DNA of 32,500 nucleotides from an uncultured Bacilli bacterium (GTDB lineage: Bacteria > Bacillota_I > Bacilli_A > RF39 > UBA660), in the NCBI GenBank assembly GCA_947632455.1, contig CANRPK010000014.1:1-32500 (forward strand). The letters run 5' to 3'. Made by a program: the position numbers and the translations under genes. Within the stretch, counting starts at the first letter, position 1. Each line of letters starts with the position of its first letter. The notes beneath the pieces are model-generated. The model was not told where the DNA came from, did not search any database, and was given only the letters and a program-made list of their open reading frames with translations. Below are positions 11,886-21,145 of this stretch, in pieces.

Positions 11886-12821
11886 ATGAAAAATGAAATT
11901 ATACTATTTAAAAATCAAAATGTTAAACTAGAAGTCAATATGAAAGATGAAACCGTGTGGCTTACACAAGAACAAATGGGAATTTTATTTGGCAAGTCAA
12001 GATCAACAATAAATGAACATATTAAGAACATTTATAAAGAAAAAGAATTAGATGAACAAGAAACTTTAAGAAAATTCGGAAATTCCGAATTTAGTGCAAA
12101 GTCAACAAATTATTACAATTTAGATATGATAATTAGTGTAGGGTATCGTGTAAACTCTAAAAATGGTATTATTTTTCGAAAATGGGCAACTAAAGTATTA
12201 AAAGATTATATGATTAAAGGTTATGCAGTTAATCAAAAGAGATTAGAATATCTTGAAAAAACAATAAAATTAATAGATATTGCTGGAAGAATAGATACCG
12301 AATTAACAGGAATAGAAGCTCAAGAAATCATTAAAGTAATAAATAATTATTCAAATGCTTTAAATTTGCTTGATGATTATGATCATAAAAAAATTACTAA
12401 ACCAAATGGAACAAAAAACAATAAAAAAATTACTTATGAAGATTGTAAAAATATAGTTAGTCAACTTGAATTTGGAAATGATAGTGATTTATTTGCTCTT
12501 GAAAGAGATGAAGGCTTAAAATCTATAATAGCAGATATTTATCAATCTTTTGATGGAAAAGATTTGTATTCTACTATTGAAGAAAAAGCAGCCAATTTCT
12601 TATATTTAATAACTAAAAATCATACTTTTATTGATGGCAATAAAAGAATAGCTGCTACCTTATTTATATATTTCTTAAAATTTTATAATATTTTATATAA
12701 TGAAAAAGGTCAAGTTATTGATAACAATACACTTGTTGCAATTACATTACTTATTGCTGAGTCTAATCCTAAAGAAAAAGATGTATTAATTGATTTAGTA
12801 ATGAACTTCTTAGTTTCATAA
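11886..12821 (+). CDS. RhuM-Fic/Doc fusion protein
   Basis: Residues 1-115 are the RhuM domain (VWLTQEQMGILFGKSRSTI, later VGYRVNSKNGIIFRKWAT), a putative DNA-binding module. The C-terminal part (about 185-311) is a Fic/Doc fold with the active-site motif HTFIDGNKR (H246-R254). The Lys in GNKR is as in the phosphorylating toxin Doc and unlike the glycine of classical AMP-transferring Fic enzymes. The catalytic His is present, so the domain should be active. There is no separate antitoxin gene beside it, so the RhuM part may bind DNA and self-regulate. It has its own promoter but a weak ribosome site (AAAGAATGGT). It is flanked by a cupin gene and a partial copy of that gene, a sign of horizontal insertion. 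Confidence 0.87.
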   Translation: MKNEIILFKNQNVKLEVNMKDETVWLTQEQMGILFGKSRSTINEHIKNIYKEKELDEQETLRKFGNSEFSAKSTNYYNLDMIISVGYRVNSKNGIIFRKWATKVLKDYMIKGYAVNQKRLEYLEKTIKLIDIAGRIDTELTGIEAQEIIKVINNYSNALNLLDDYDHKKITKPNGTKNNKKITYEDCKNIVSQLEFGNDSDLFALERDEGLKSIIADIYQSFDGKDLYSTIEEKAANFLYLITKNHTFIDGNKRIAATLFIYFLKFYNILYNEKGQVIDNNTLVAITLLIAESNPKEKDVLIDLVMNFLVS

Positions 12822-14969: not shown

Positions 14970-15449
14970 ATGGCTAATGATTTTATTAAAATATACCATT
15001 TAATCAAAAATGATTTATTACGCCTAGCATATAGCTATACTAAAAACCTATCAGATGCCGAAGATATTATTCAAGAAGTATTTATAAAACTATATGAAAA
15101 TTTTGCTAAATTTAATGATGAAGAACATTTAAAAAAATGGTGTATTAAAGTAACTATAAATAAATGTAAAAATTTATATTTTTCTTCATGGCAAAGAAAA
15201 ATAAAGTATTTAACTAAAATAGATGAAAATAAATCATCACTCATATTACCAGAAAATAATCTTTTAACGGCTATCTTAGAACTACCTAAAAAATATAGAA
15301 TTGTAATTATCTTATACTATTATAATGGTTATAAAATAAAAGAAATATCGCAAATTTTAAAAATAAAAGAAACTACAATAAAAACTCAGCTAAAAAGAGC
15401 TAAAAATAAATTAGAAATAATTTTAAAAGAGGAGGGTAATAATGATTAA
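14970..15449 (+). CDS. ECF RNA polymerase sigma factor
   Basis: A 159-residue sigma-70 family regulator. Region 2 (about 5-75) has the DAEDIIQEVFIKLYENF motif, and region 4 (about 95-150) has LPKKYRIVIILYYYNGYKIKEISQIL followed by the recognition helix TTIKTQLKRAKNKL. It directs RNA polymerase to a stress regulon, probably envelope related. The AAGGAGG site is 5 bases before ATG. It overlaps by 8 bases the next gene, a single-helix membrane protein that is the likely anti-sigma factor. Confidence 0.92.
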   Translation: MANDFIKIYHLIKNDLLRLAYSYTKNLSDAEDIIQEVFIKLYENFAKFNDEEHLKKWCIKVTINKCKNLYFSSWQRKIKYLTKIDENKSSLILPENNLLTAILELPKKYRIVIILYYYNGYKIKEISQILKIKETTIKTQLKRAKNKLEIILKEEGNND

Positions 15450-16263
15450 TAAAGAACAAATAAGTAAAGCTCTAAGTTCAATTAAAACTAGTGAAGAATT
15501 AGATAAAAAAATATTAGACGCGACTATTTATAAACAAGAAAATAAAAATATTTTTTCAAAAAAAGGAATAATAGCAATTTTAATATTAGTAGTATTTATG
15601 ACTACGACCGTATTTGCTAAAGATTTTATTTATAATTGTATTTTAAATTTAATTAATTCTAATGATTTAGAATATACAGAAAGTATTTCTCTAACTAACC
15701 ATGTTAATATTAAGAATACTTCCAATATTTCTTGTGATAACTTTTCCACTTTATCAGAAGTAGAAACAACTTTAGGAATAAAATTTATATTTGATACTTC
15801 AAAATATAATGAAAAAATTAGTAAATGTGCTATAAAAATAAATAATCAAGGTTATCTAGAAAGTCTTGAACTAAGCATTTTAGAATTTTATGATTATTCT
15901 CTAGCTAATAAAGATATCGATTTAAAATTAGAGGATAATTTTACCCAAGAAGAATACATGGCTTGGCTTGCAAAAAGAAAAATGGTAGATTTACATATCG
16001 CTTTTATGACGCAATATGCAAGTTATGAAACTAAAAATAAGTTTAAAAATTATAATATTATTTATTCAACCGGAGGTTATTTAGAAGCTCAAGAATTTAT
16101 TGCTAATAATATTAATACTACTGGTTATTATTTTCTATCTCCTAGTAAAAATATTCCTTTAAGAAAAGAATTAGTTTTTGTAAATAATAATATTCTTTAT
16201 GAATTTAGTGCTAATAAATCGGTTGAAATAGAAGAATTACTAAATATAATAAATGAATTTTAA
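15442..16263 (+). CDS. Probable membrane anti-sigma factor
   Basis: 273 residues with a cytoplasmic N-terminus (1-40), one membrane helix (about 41-61, GIIAILILVVFMTTTVFA) and an external domain of about 210 residues. The 8-base overlap with the sigma gene and the topology are the main evidence for an anti-sigma role; there is no zinc HxxxCxxC motif in the N-terminus. The external part resembles DUF4367-like sensor domains in tone (FTQEEYMAWL, then NIIYSTGGYLEAQEF), but I cannot assign it firmly. Confidence 0.72.
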   Translation: MINKEQISKALSSIKTSEELDKKILDATIYKQENKNIFSKKGIIAILILVVFMTTTVFAKDFIYNCILNLINSNDLEYTESISLTNHVNIKNTSNISCDNFSTLSEVETTLGIKFIFDTSKYNEKISKCAIKINNQGYLESLELSILEFYDYSLANKDIDLKLEDNFTQEEYMAWLAKRKMVDLHIAFMTQYASYETKNKFKNYNIIYSTGGYLEAQEFIANNINTTGYYFLSPSKNIPLRKELVFVNNNILYEFSANKSVEIEELLNIINEF

Positions 16264-16300
16264 AATAATTATTTAATTTATATAAGTAAAAGCTAAATTG

Positions 16301-16309
16301 TGCTATAAT
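16301..16309 (+). promoter_or_regulatory. murT promoter, extended -10
   Basis: TGCTATAAT, 24 bases before the murT ATG. Confidence 0.6.
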
Positions 16310-16333
16310 AAAAAAGAAATAAGGTGTTTAAAT

Positions 16334-17653
16334 ATGAAGATATTAGCAATATTAGTTGGTAAAATTATTATTTTAATTGGTAAAATATTTCATAAAGGTA
16401 GTTCCTTACCTGGCAAAGTTGCTCTAAAAATTTATCCTGATTTATTAAAAAACTTTCAATATCCTTCTATAAGAATTGTTGTAACCGGTTCTTCAGGAAA
16501 AGGTAGTACTACTAAATTAATTGCCGAGACTATTAAAAATACTAAAACAGTATGTTATAACTCTTCTGGAGCTAACCTCAGTTGGGGAATTACCACGGCT
16601 TTATTAGAGCATGCAAGCCTAAATGGTCATATTAAAACCGATGCTTTAGTCTTAGAAGTTGATGAACGTTATACTAAAACAATCCTACCTTATATAAAAC
16701 CTGATTATCTTGTTATTACCAATTTAACTAAAGATCAACCTCCACGTCAACATTATATCGATTTAGTTTATGATGACATAGTAAAAAGCATTCCTAAAAA
16801 TTCCCTTATTATAACTAATATGGATGATCCTTATTTACGTAATTTTGCTAAAGATTTAAAAAATAAAATAGTTTATTATAGTCTAGCTAAAAATAAATAT
16901 TCCTATAAAAAACAAATATTTGAAAACTTAAATATATATCATTGTCCATATTGCAATAGTAAATTAAAATATAGTTACTATAATATTGAAACTTTAGGTA
17001 ATTATAAATGTCCAAATTGTTCTTTTACTTATGAAGAACCTCAATATATAGGTAAAAATCTTGATTTGACTAAAATGACATTTACTATTAATAATGAAAT
17101 AATAAATATTGGGGGAGACATGCTATATAATGCTTATAATACTTTAGCTAGTTATACTTGTTTAGCTCAATTAAATCTTGATTTTACATCTATCAATAAT
17201 AGTCTTAATAATTTAAATAAATTACCAAGTAAAGACTTTATTAATGATAATAAAACTTTTCGCGCTATATCTTGTAAAGCTGAAAATGCCAGTACTTATA
17301 ATCAAGCCATATTTAAAGTAATGCATGATCAAGATAAAAAAGATATTATTATTGGTTGGTTAGAAATATCTCGTCGTTATAATCATTATGATATTTCCTG
17401 GCTTTATGATATTGAATTTGAGTTATTAAATAATTCTAGTTTAAATAAAATATATGTATGTGGTATTGATGCTTTAAATATTAAGCAAAGATTATTATTA
17501 GCTAATATTAAAAATGAAAAAATAGTCATGGGTGAAAATATTGCTAGTATTAAAGAAAAAGTTTTACATAGTAAAGCTTCTAAGGTTTATGGTATTCTAA
17601 ATTTTGATTATGTAAAACCTTTTGAAGAAGCTTTTAAAAAGAAAGAAGAGTAA
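16334..17653 (+). CDS. murT: MurT-like lipid II isoglutaminyl synthase ligase subunit
   Basis: A Mur-ligase relative that, with GatD, amidates the D-Glu of lipid II to D-isoglutamine at the cytoplasmic membrane. After a hydrophobic N-terminus (about 3-20) come the ATP loop TGSSGKGSTT (51-60), the EVDE motif (108-111) and TNLTKDQPPR. A four-Cys zinc ribbon (CPYC 204-207, CPNC 226-229) is characteristic of MurT. The C-terminal DUF1727 part keeps DISWLYDIEFE, the region that in Staphylococcus supplies an acidic residue to the GatD active site, but the usual KNPxG motif is altered. ATG 16334 follows AAGGTG by 7 bases; there is no ribosome site for an upstream frame extension. gatD starts 2 bases after the stop. 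Confidence 0.88.
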   Translation: MKILAILVGKIIILIGKIFHKGSSLPGKVALKIYPDLLKNFQYPSIRIVVTGSSGKGSTTKLIAETIKNTKTVCYNSSGANLSWGITTALLEHASLNGHIKTDALVLEVDERYTKTILPYIKPDYLVITNLTKDQPPRQHYIDLVYDDIVKSIPKNSLIITNMDDPYLRNFAKDLKNKIVYYSLAKNKYSYKKQIFENLNIYHCPYCNSKLKYSYYNIETLGNYKCPNCSFTYEEPQYIGKNLDLTKMTFTINNEIINIGGDMLYNAYNTLASYTCLAQLNLDFTSINNSLNNLNKLPSKDFINDNKTFRAISCKAENASTYNQAIFKVMHDQDKKDIIIGWLEISRRYNHYDISWLYDIEFELLNNSSLNKIYVCGIDALNIKQRLLLANIKNEKIVMGENIASIKEKVLHSKASKVYGILNFDYVKPFEEAFKKKEE

Positions 17654-17655
17654 AT

Positions 17656-18261
17656 ATGATAAAAATAGCTCATTTATATCCTGAATTATTAACTTTATAT
17701 GGTGAAAATGGTAATATTAAAGCCTTAACTAAAGAATTAACTAAAAATAAACAAAAATATTCTCTAACTAATATTAATTTAGAAGATGAAATAAATTTTT
17801 CTGAATATGACTTTATTTATATTGGAAGTGGTCGACCTAAAAATTTAGAATTAGTAAAAAATCATTTAATGAAGTATGAAAAAGATATTTTAACCTACAT
17901 TAATAGCCATAAAATTCTTTTGGCAACAGGAAATGCTCTAAGTATTTTTGACTTTTTAAATTTATATGAAATCGAAAAATATCCTGAATTTATAACCGCG
18001 GATATTAAAGCTACAACTCCTTTAGTAAAAGAAGAAATAAAAGGATTTCAAAATACTGAATGGTTAATCAAAAATTGTGATAATCCTTTTATAGATATTA
18101 TTGAAGGCTATGGTAATTCTAAAACCACTAAAGAAGGGTATTATAAAAATAATTTTTATGTTACTTCAATAATTGGTCCAATTCTTGCACGTAATCCTAA
18201 ATTAAATAATTATTTTGTTAAATTATTAATAAGTGTAAACAAAGATAAAAATATTATTTAA
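17656..18261 (+). CDS. gatD: GatD-like glutamine amidotransferase subunit without catalytic Cys or His
   Basis: Position and sequence mark it as GatD: HLYPELLTLYGENGNIKAL at the start, IGSGRPKNLELVK, then GFQN, EGYGNS and GPILARNP in family order. In working GatD the nucleophile lies in an ICGGYQ loop; here the loop reads LLATGNALS, with Thr91 in place of Cys. The catalytic His of the TYLHGPIL motif is replaced (TSIIGPIL, Ile173), and the GFENH motif has lost its His. Both glutaminase residues are thus missing while the frame is intact and the fold signature is kept. It probably serves as a structural partner of MurT, which would then have to use free ammonia. The length of 201 residues is somewhat short for the family. 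Confidence 0.82.
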   Translation: MIKIAHLYPELLTLYGENGNIKALTKELTKNKQKYSLTNINLEDEINFSEYDFIYIGSGRPKNLELVKNHLMKYEKDILTYINSHKILLATGNALSIFDFLNLYEIEKYPEFITADIKATTPLVKEEIKGFQNTEWLIKNCDNPFIDIIEGYGNSKTTKEGYYKNNFYVTSIIGPILARNPKLNNYFVKLLISVNKDKNII

Positions 18262-18308: not shown

Positions 18309-19226
18309 ATGAAAAAATTTTTATTAACTCTTTTTTCTTTAATAATAAGTTTAATTCTTATATTTACATATTTTAATATAGTAAAAGAACGTAATTTAAA
18401 AAAACTTGAAGAAACAAGTATACCAACCAATAAAGTAGATCCCCAAACTATTCTTGTTCAAAACTATCTTCAAAAATTAATTAATTCTAATTATGATTTT
18501 TTAATAAATATTGCTAATAAAGAATTTGTTTTAACATATACTGGTACTTTTTTTGATGATATAACTAAAGGAAAAAGATATACTACTCCTCAAGTTGAAG
18601 GCCTAAATTCTGTTTCTTATCAAATAGAGGATCAAAAATGTTATAATTCTGAAACTAAAGAAGAAATATTTAATGCTTATTATGAAGCTGATTATGAATA
18701 TATATTTTTATATAATATTTTAACTAAACTTAATAATGCTAGTTGTGATATTAATGAAAATACCTTAACCTGCCAAGAAACAAATGCTAAATATACTTTT
18801 ATTATTAATGATGATAATATAACTGATATCGAAATAGAACTTATAGATAACCCATATTATTATAAATATACTCATAAATATTCTAATATTAATAATACTA
18901 TTACTTTAAATAAAATAAATAATTCTAAATATTTTGATATTACCTCAACCCCTAATAACCCTAATACAGCTAATTTAAATAGTAATTATATAGAATATGG
19001 CATATCTAATATTAATATTACTTTAAACCAAGAAGAATATACTTATTCTAATATTAATGATTTAATAAAACATGCCAAATATAGTAAAGTATATAATAAT
19101 AATATTACTAAATATATATTAGATGATGATTATGTTATTTTTATTAAAAATAATTATACTAGTCAAAAAATAATCTTTAGTCTAAATAAATATACTAATG
19201 CTATTTTAAAACTTTTAAATAAGTAG
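18309..19226 (+). CDS. Membrane-anchored external protein, unknown
   Basis: 305 residues with an N-terminal hydrophobic anchor (about 4-24) and a large, very Asn/Tyr-rich external region with four Cys clustered at about 117-156. No lipobox. I do not recognise a domain; the mean composition suggests a beta-rich sensor or cell-wall associated protein. It is followed by a DUF1287 protein after 9 bases, and the two likely form an operon. AGAGGT precedes the ATG. Confidence 0.65.
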   Translation: MKKFLLTLFSLIISLILIFTYFNIVKERNLKKLEETSIPTNKVDPQTILVQNYLQKLINSNYDFLINIANKEFVLTYTGTFFDDITKGKRYTTPQVEGLNSVSYQIEDQKCYNSETKEEIFNAYYEADYEYIFLYNILTKLNNASCDINENTLTCQETNAKYTFIINDDNITDIEIELIDNPYYYKYTHKYSNINNTITLNKINNSKYFDITSTPNNPNTANLNSNYIEYGISNINITLNQEEYTYSNINDLIKHAKYSKVYNNNITKYILDDDYVIFIKNNYTSQKIIFSLNKYTNAILKLLNK

Positions 19227-19235
19227 GAGATTAAT

Positions 19236-19943
19236 ATGACTTATTTAATAGTTTTTTTAGGTTTAATTAGTATCTATTTATTATTTTTTAAAAAAAAGAA
19301 ATCTTCCAATTTAAAAGTATTTCTTCTTTTTCTAATAATTTTAATTCTTATTATTTATATTTTATATTATCTAAATATTATACCCCATAAAAAATATACT
19401 GATAGTGACTTTAATATTAAAACATATATATCTAATATTGATAAAGATAATGATGGTATAGATGACGCTACCGACATTATTAGTAGTGTTAAAGCTTATT
19501 TAAAAACTAAACCCCAATATCAAAGTAAATATTATGCGACTGGTTATCCCAATGATAATTATGGAGTATGTACTGATGTTGTTGCCTTTGGTTTATTAGG
19601 CGCAGGTTATGATTTAAGAGAATTAATTAATAATGATATCAAAGCTAATCGTAATAAATATAATATAGAAGTAGTTGATAAAAATATTGATTTTAGAAGA
19701 GTAGAAAACATTAAAGTCTATTTAGAAAATAACGCTATAACTCTGACTACTGATTTAAAAGATATTTCTTCATGGCAAAGAGGGGATATAGTAGTATTTA
19801 AAAAACATATAGGCATTATTTCTGAACATCGTAATAAAAATGGTATACCTTTTGTTTATCATCATGCTAGTAAAAGCCAAAAACACTATGAAGAAGATAT
19901 TTTAAAATCATCTAATATTGTCGGACATTATCGAATTAGTTAA
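19236..19943 (+). CDS. DUF1287-type NlpC/P60-like protein with a calcium-loop motif
   Basis: Two N-terminal membrane helices (about 2-19 and 27-49) place the rest outside. Residues 69-77 (DKDNDGIDD) match the DxDxDGxxD calcium loop of dockerin/thrombospondin-type motifs. The DUF1287 domain follows, with candidate nucleophile C112 in YGVCTDVVAFGLLGAGYDLRE, the GDIVVFKKHIGIISEH motif with its His, and VYHHAS. DUF1287 proteins are papain-like enzymes thought to act on cell-wall peptides; the location between murT/gatD and the D-Ala-D-Ala carboxypeptidase fits that. Substrate unproven. Confidence 0.82.
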   Translation: MTYLIVFLGLISIYLLFFKKKKSSNLKVFLLFLIILILIIYILYYLNIIPHKKYTDSDFNIKTYISNIDKDNDGIDDATDIISSVKAYLKTKPQYQSKYYATGYPNDNYGVCTDVVAFGLLGAGYDLRELINNDIKANRNKYNIEVVDKNIDFRRVENIKVYLENNAITLTTDLKDISSWQRGDIVVFKKHIGIISEHRNKNGIPFVYHHASKSQKHYEEDILKSSNIVGHYRIS

Positions 19944-19999
19944 TATTTTTTGTCATAAATAGTTTATCTAATCGTACATATTTATTAAGAGGTGTTAAA

Positions 20000-21145
20000 T
20001 TGAAAAAATTTATAGGACTAATAATATGTACTTTTTTTATATCGATAATACCCGTTAAAGCCGCGGATACTCTTAATTTAGATAGTAAAAGTGCAATATT
20101 ATTAGATAATGCTAGTGGTAAAATTTTATATGAAAAAAATATTAATGAAAAACTTCCCATGGCTAGTATGACTAAAATTATGAGTATACTTCTTATTATG
20201 GAACAAATAGATAATGGTAATTTAAATTATAATGATAAAGTTTTAATTAGTAAAAATGCTAGTGGAATGGGTGGGTCTCAAGTATTTTTACAAGCCGGGG
20301 AAGAATATAAAGTTGAAGATTTGCTTAAATGTATTGCCGTTTCTAGTGCTAATGATGCCGTTGTAGCGATGGCTGAAAAAATAAGTGGCACTGAAGAAGC
20401 CTTTGTTGCCCAAATGAATGCTAAAGTAAAAGAATTAGGCCTTACAAATACTCATTTTGCTAATCCTCATGGACTTGATAATGAAAACCATTATTCTACT
20501 GCTCAAGATATGGCTCGTATAGCTCAAGAATTATTAAAACATGAAGATATTTTAAGATTTACTTCTATTTATGAAGATTATTTAACTAAACCTGATGGTT
20601 CTCAAGTATGGCTTGTAAATACTAATCGATTAGTTAGGTTTTATGATGGTGTAGATGGTCTAAAAACAGGTTATACCACAGATGCTGGATATTGCTTAAC
20701 TGCAACTGCTAAGAAAAATGATTTACGCTTAATTAGTGTTGTTATGAATGCCTCATCCGCGGATGCTCGAAGTAAAGATACCGCGACTTTATTAACATAC
20801 GGTTTTAATTCTTTTAAAAATAATATTATTTATTCAAAAGATAAATCTTTAGGGGAAATAAATGTTGATAGGGGTAAAAAATCTAAAGTGAAAGTTTATC
20901 TAAAAGAAGACGCTACCGAACTTTTAAAGGTTACGCAAAAACCAAATGATTATAGTTTTAATATTAAAGCTGATAAAATAGTTGCTCCCTTAAAAAAGGG
21001 TAGTAAAGTAGGTATAGCCGAAATAATTGATAATGAAGGAAATATCCTAAAAGAAATAGACATAGTTATAAAAGAAGATCTAGTTAAAGCAAGTTTTAGT
21101 GATTATTTAAAGAAAAATCTTAAAAATATTACGAGTGGTATTTAA
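20000..21145 (+). CDS. dacA: D-alanyl-D-alanine carboxypeptidase (PBP5/DacA type)
   Basis: Removes the terminal D-Ala from peptidoglycan stem peptides outside the membrane. A signal peptide (1-22, cleavage after VKA) precedes the penicillin-binding domain with the serine motif S56-M-T-K59, SxN at S116-A-N118 and K222-T-G224. A PBP5 C-terminal beta domain (about 275-350) and a terminal amphipathic helix (FSDYLKKNLKNI), the usual membrane foot, follow. Start is TTG at 20000, preceded by AAGAGGTG. DacF could be an equally valid name. Confidence 0.93.
   Translation: MKKFIGLIICTFFISIIPVKAADTLNLDSKSAILLDNASGKILYEKNINEKLPMASMTKIMSILLIMEQIDNGNLNYNDKVLISKNASGMGGSQVFLQAGEEYKVEDLLKCIAVSSANDAVVAMAEKISGTEEAFVAQMNAKVKELGLTNTHFANPHGLDNENHYSTAQDMARIAQELLKHEDILRFTSIYEDYLTKPDGSQVWLVNTNRLVRFYDGVDGLKTGYTTDAGYCLTATAKKNDLRLISVVMNASSADARSKDTATLLTYGFNSFKNNIIYSKDKSLGEINVDRGKKSKVKVYLKEDATELLKVTQKPNDYSFNIKADKIVAPLKKGSKVGIAEIIDNEGNILKEIDIVIKEDLVKASFSDYLKKNLKNITSGI

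Follow-up and report, generated by a model that had tools for sequence, protein, structure and literature searches.

How can a MurT-GatD complex serve the cell wall when its glutaminase subunit has lost the residues that split glutamine? D-Glu amidation by MurT-GatD sets cross-linking and shapes the muropeptides met by hosts. The question is raised by a gene pair in the window, by which we mean the whole 32,500-nucleotide stretch of DNA that was analysed, from an uncultured Bacilli bacterium. With a GatD of this kind, MurT must use free ammonia or another amine on the wall.

A GatD without catalytic residues

The gene pair and the positions of interest in GatD are as follows.

16298..17653, + strand: murT, ligase subunit; the start is more likely the ATG at 16334, giving 439 aa
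17656..18261, + strand: gatD, glutaminase-fold subunit without catalytic residues (family matches, PDB matches, AlphaFold model)
17926..17934, + strand: T91-G92-N93, conserved substitute for the loop of the Cys nucleophile, with Gly92 where the Cys would be (alignment)
17989..17991, + strand: Phe112 at the site of the glutamine-capturing Arg142 (alignment; the Arg is kept by most relatives)
18172..18174, + strand: Ile173 within TSIIGP, replacing catalytic His206 of S. pneumoniae (alignment)

The gatD gene starts 2 bp past the end of murT on the same strand and encodes 201 aa. Its family matches are to GatD or GATase_3 only, and fall far under the curated cut-off for the NCBIfam GatD model (E 2e-20, 73 bits against 400 bits) and slightly under that for Pfam GATase_3 (E 1e-5). 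Structural evidence places the protein in the same family: the best solved-structure matches by sequence are GatDs (E 1e-14 to 1e-10), and the AlphaFold model (pLDDT 95.2, pTM 0.91) retrieves GatD chains as all nine of its top nine PDB matches, with CPS1 also among the fold matches. GatD is shortened throughout the window's genus.

The first-pass annotation had described an intact frame, surviving family motifs and a complete loss of the catalytic Cys and His, and this description withstands closer inspection. The open reading frame is uninterrupted, every motif string named is present (strictly, it is Gly in ATGNALS to which the Cys maps), and both catalytic residues are absent in the alignment, Cys being replaced by Gly92 and His by Ile173. 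The Gly92 codon (nt 17929-17931) aligns with S. pneumoniae Cys107 with no gaps around the nucleophile among relatives, and across 81 relatives the T, G and N of the substitute motif each show 90% conservation or more. The gate tyrosine persists in most GatDs, as does the G-P of HGP. Two observations had been set down in advance as counting against the claim, a Cys or His at another place in the site and another catalytic GatD in the genome; the alignment yielded neither residue, and the assembly of the window's genome, 94.5% complete, gave no further GatD. Cys141 of the window protein was considered as a relocated nucleophile and ruled out, its segment being mostly S/T in genus mates. The further claim that such a protein cannot hydrolyse glutamine is a prediction from sequence that agrees with published mutants: in S. 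aureus, GatD C94G abolished glutamine-dependent amidation (PMC3266927), and replacement of Cys94 or His189 with Ala eliminated glutaminase activity (PMC6085368).

MurT: a conserved ligase centre with remodelled loops

The murT product matches Pfam MurT_C and Mur_ligase_M, the NCBIfam MurT models (E 3e-49 to 8e-53) and MurT in the PDB (E 2e-45); its AlphaFold model (pLDDT 94) retrieves MurT chains as PDB matches 1-13. Four segments bear on its function.

16487..16507, + strand: P-loop GSSGKGS with Lys56 (S. pneumoniae Lys59), the Lys being invariant in 247 of 247 MurTs tabulated
16724..16762, + strand: loop LTKDQPPRQHYID, equivalent to S. pneumoniae loop 135-143 and situated where MurT meets GatD (alignment, with the loop's role from PMC6085368)
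17276..17287, + strand: K-A-E-N where the canonical sequence is K-N-P-T-G (alignment)
17369..17380, + strand: loop S-R-R-Y, of the form S-x-[RK]-Y, where the canonical sequence is N-D-x-x-D-G (alignment)

In the loop LTKDQPPRQHYID, Asp134 and Arg138 are kept and the canonical Asp139 is Pro. Asp353, the equivalent of S. aureus D349, is kept slightly downstream of S-R-R-Y, and the Zn-ribbon Cys residues are present as CPYC and CPNC. Throughout the MurT clade marked by the S-x-[RK]-Y loop, K59, N85, E110, D112, E113, D136, R140 and D361 (S. pneumoniae numbering) never vary and position 355 always carries an acid; read against the roles assigned to the ATP, Mg, acceptor and gate residues (PMC6085368), these positions indicate that the ligase centre and the GatD-facing gate have been kept. 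Some further ATP-pocket positions vary, for example Arg304. The same clade replaces N-D-x-x-D-G and K-N-P-T-G with S-x-[RK]-Y and K-x-E-N, and has lost D139. The initial description of MurT as intact thus holds for the ATP, Mg and acceptor residues and fails for the C-terminal loop beside the GatD-facing gate, which is non-canonical. At position 143 (S. pneumoniae numbering), where canonical MurTs have Glu, both clades with a dead GatD have mostly His (100/146 and 9/10).

Spread of the variant and co-variation of the two subunits

Relatives were surveyed in the window's class and phylum and in the class of Ruminococcus bromii. Besides the window's own genome, 31 of 35 genomes of the genus gave a match, with open frames beside MurT, and Cys and His are absent from every GatD retrieved in the genus. 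One locus, L043 (genome G002, listed in the window's genus), carries the other type of dead GatD, which accompanies MurTs with an S-E-N loop; its presence there may reflect transfer or misplacement. A MurT-partner scan of named genomes recovered at least 575 relatives, and in the best 80 of these, which include a UBA660 genome, Erysipelotrichaceae, R. bromii 5AMG and Massiliimalia massiliensis, the adjacent GatD lacks the catalytic pair in every case. The locus in the UBA660 genome is identical in DNA to one from a genome assigned to the window's family, which makes that family the one to which UBA660 belongs. A single MurT_C gene, of this type, is present in R. bromii, in Massiliimalia and in each of six MAGs, which rules out for these genomes the idea of two systems, one of them canonical.

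Co-variation was counted over 234 unique GatD sequences grouped by the loop of the partner MurT. Both residues are missing from the partner GatD in 134 of 134 cases with a loop of the S-x-[RK]-Y type (counting L012 and its TKRY) and in 10 of 10 with S-E-N; the remaining MurTs, mostly with N-D-x-x-D-G, have a partner with Cys and His in 80 of 88 cases, these counts being frequencies rather than prevalences, as loci from the R. bromii class were taken mainly among better-scoring matches, and reflecting a few events, as members within one clade are non-independent. Four GatDs in the group of 88 have neither residue, among them L047 and L048, whose own MurT loop is altered too. In a MurT tree built with the diagnostic columns omitted, the S-x-[RK]-Y sequences form one clade (SH-aLRT 92) and the S-E-N sequences another (100). 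The former unites UBA660-type gut Bacilli, some Erysipelotrichaceae and Oscillospiraceae including R. bromii and Massiliimalia, and has Gly at the S. pneumoniae C107 position in 145 of 146 members. The latter (L039, L043, L213, L221, L225, L245, L247, L256, L275 and L292) has mostly Asn at MurT position 355 (S. aureus D349). Scattered and apparently recent losses of GatD residues also occur within canonical clades (L278, L280, L219 and L226), with the MurT loop still canonical. A GatD of the S-x-[RK]-Y clade, L163, reads FCGNS, with a Cys one residue ahead of the nucleophile site and no His. Far from being a local accident, the glutaminase-dead GatD characterises a large clade in which the MurT loop co-varies.

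Genome context

The glutamine amidotransferase repertoire of the window's genome is small. Its one GATase_6 protein is GlmS-like with MCGI, and only one PF00117 protein was found, so that the glutaminase domains of CTP synthase, GMP synthetase and CarA are not seen. We take this sole PF00117 protein to be PuuD-like. A GlmS with its Cys is present in the window's genome and in genus mates, and genomes larger than this one share the GatD trait; both facts weaken the notion that GatD lost its residues solely because glutamine is not used. The search for MurD came up empty in the window's assembly, but nearly all genus mates have it, and MurT as a MurD substitute is ruled out. MurE of the window's genome has a DNPR motif and adjoins a dapF-like gene, and the stem peptide of the organism therefore probably holds meso-DAP.

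Directly upstream of murT (14970-16263) lies an ECF-type sigma factor and, after it, an unassigned ORF with one apparent membrane segment, possibly anti-sigma-like by its position only. Downstream of gatD (18309-21145) are an ORF without a family, a DUF1287 protein and a DacA-like carboxypeptidase, possibly a cell-wall cluster, and a protein matching the RhuM and Fic Pfam families is encoded at 11886-12821. Some MurT-GatD loci lie near homologues of murB, murG, ftsQ, ftsA, ftsZ or mreB, recognised by eye; no conserved third partner gene emerged, the top neighbour family occurring in at most 8 of 80 loci.

Candidate functions of the complex

Could gatD simply be a relic of a shrinking genome? 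The small size of the window's genome, its few glutamine amidotransferases and the shortening of GatD across the genus would fit such decay. Yet the frames stay open beside MurT in the genus, the TGN motif is common to several families, and R. bromii and Massiliimalia have MurT of the S-x-[RK]-Y type alone. GatD dN/dS is about 0.06-0.2, near the MurT value; both genes are under purifying selection and GatD is maintained, which excludes both decay and the relaxed selection that had been raised at the outset in connection with a second GatD. We regard the relic reading as highly improbable.

For a maintained GatD, the two options named initially, use of free ammonia or formation of another product, are indeed the ones to weigh, and they cannot be told apart from sequence alone. 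The reading that we favour, and to which we assign about an even chance, is a MurT complex that does without glutamine, in which GatD is the scaffold and ammonia the nucleophile. MurT with ATP would activate the alpha-carboxyl of lipid II D-Glu, while GatD would carry out no hydrolysis and would act as a scaffold required for MurT activity; free ammonia would then attack the activated carboxyl, the product remaining D-isoglutamine, which is the least certain step. The natural GatDs carry the same Cys-to-Gly change as C94G, and it is the use of ammonia by that mutant that favours this reading: S. aureus MurT with GatD C94G retains ammonia-dependent activity at pH 8.5, and neither subunit is active alone (PMC3266927). 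Human CPS1, in which the Cys is replaced and ammonia is used, provides a precedent (PMC4655335). The canonical MurT loop kept in the recent losses L278, L280 and L219 is as expected if ammonia can substitute for glutamine, and a search of the window's genome for glutamine synthetase detected none, a further point in favour. Against the ammonia reading, S. aureus uses ammonia at pH 8.5 only and not at 7.5 (PMC3266927), and the MurT loop changes are unnecessary for ammonia use.

It is this remodelling beyond what ammonia needs that makes a serious rival of the proposal that the clade MurT couples the D-Glu alpha-carboxyl with an amino acid or another amine rather than with ammonia, with GatD as scaffold only and a substituted D-Glu as product, as in group B or A2-type walls. 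N-D-x-x-D-G has given way to S-x-[RK]-Y in every clade member. Judged by the succession of secondary-structure elements in the model, this loop may be the counterpart of the MurC loop that holds the incoming L-Ala and contains His376, Arg377 and Arg380 (PMC3060825). Most clade MurTs also have a His in the 135-143 loop, and canonical MurT lacks a His that other Mur ligases have (PMC6085368). However, profile alignment lends the MurC equivalence no support: hhalign aligned only the N-terminal and middle part of MurT with MurC and MurE and gave no alignment of the MurT C-terminal domain with MurC, S-x-[RK]-Y itself being conserved. Furthermore, the GatD-facing gate residues of MurT are kept, and the basic loop residues might instead bind the acceptor's meso-DAP. 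On balance, amino-acid ligation is a possible but doubtful outcome. A more distant alternative casts GatD as a regulatory sensor that would bind glutamine or another amino acid without hydrolysis and switch MurT. Retention of Arg142 in 132 of 146 clade members and of the gate Tyr30 in 144 of 146 is what such a sensor might display, but the window GatD has Phe at the Arg142 site and GatD is shortened in its genus; judged from these sequences, a sensor seems unlikely.

Comparison with known systems

The window pair resembles MurT-GatD of S. aureus and S. pneumoniae in its pairing and order of genes, its folds and its ATP, Mg and acceptor residues, and differs from them in a GatD without Cys and His and a MurT with S-x-[RK]-Y and K-x-E-N for N-D-x-x-D-G and K-N-P-T-G. 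The closest experimental likeness is the S. aureus C94G mutant, in which GatD has the same Cys-to-Gly change, the complex is still needed and ammonia is usable (PMC3266927); that mutant is, however, a single engineered change, whereas the natural pairs also lack the His, have a remodelled MurT and are conserved over a large clade. CPS1 likewise retains an ancestral glutaminase domain without its Cys and uses free ammonia (PMC4655335), but it catalyses another reaction with another synthetase, has Ser rather than Gly at the Cys position and carries the domain as a fusion. Archaeal MurT-like and pseudomurein peptide ligases are Mur-ligase relatives of MurT, the MurT-like ones occurring without GatD (PMC11915815); in contrast to these ligases, which have no GatD at all, the window MurT is nearer bacterial MurT by sequence and fold. 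Searches of the open-access literature returned no paper on a GatD that is inactive or a pseudoenzyme and, judged on the literature searched, a MurT-GatD variant with a conserved dead GatD seems to be previously undescribed.

Implications for gut Bacillota

It is enticing to speculate that the S-x-[RK]-Y clade represents a distinct peptidoglycan ligase in many gut Bacillota, which would couple the lipid II D-Glu alpha-carboxyl with an amino acid or another amine, GatD serving as scaffold, although we consider this rather unlikely. If true, the enzyme would be a candidate for amino-acid substitution of D-Glu, for instance as the initial step towards group B or A2-type walls; a gut peptidoglycome review leaves the wall type of Ruminococcus blank. 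Nature also provides, in the dead GatD clade and the repeated losses, an equivalent of the C94G mutant in which the change from glutaminase to scaffold can be studied. MDP, the NOD2 ligand, contains D-isoglutamine (PMC11382707). Where gut bacteria such as R. bromii have a form that works without glutamine, carrying the genes is no proof of amidation, and the product may differ.
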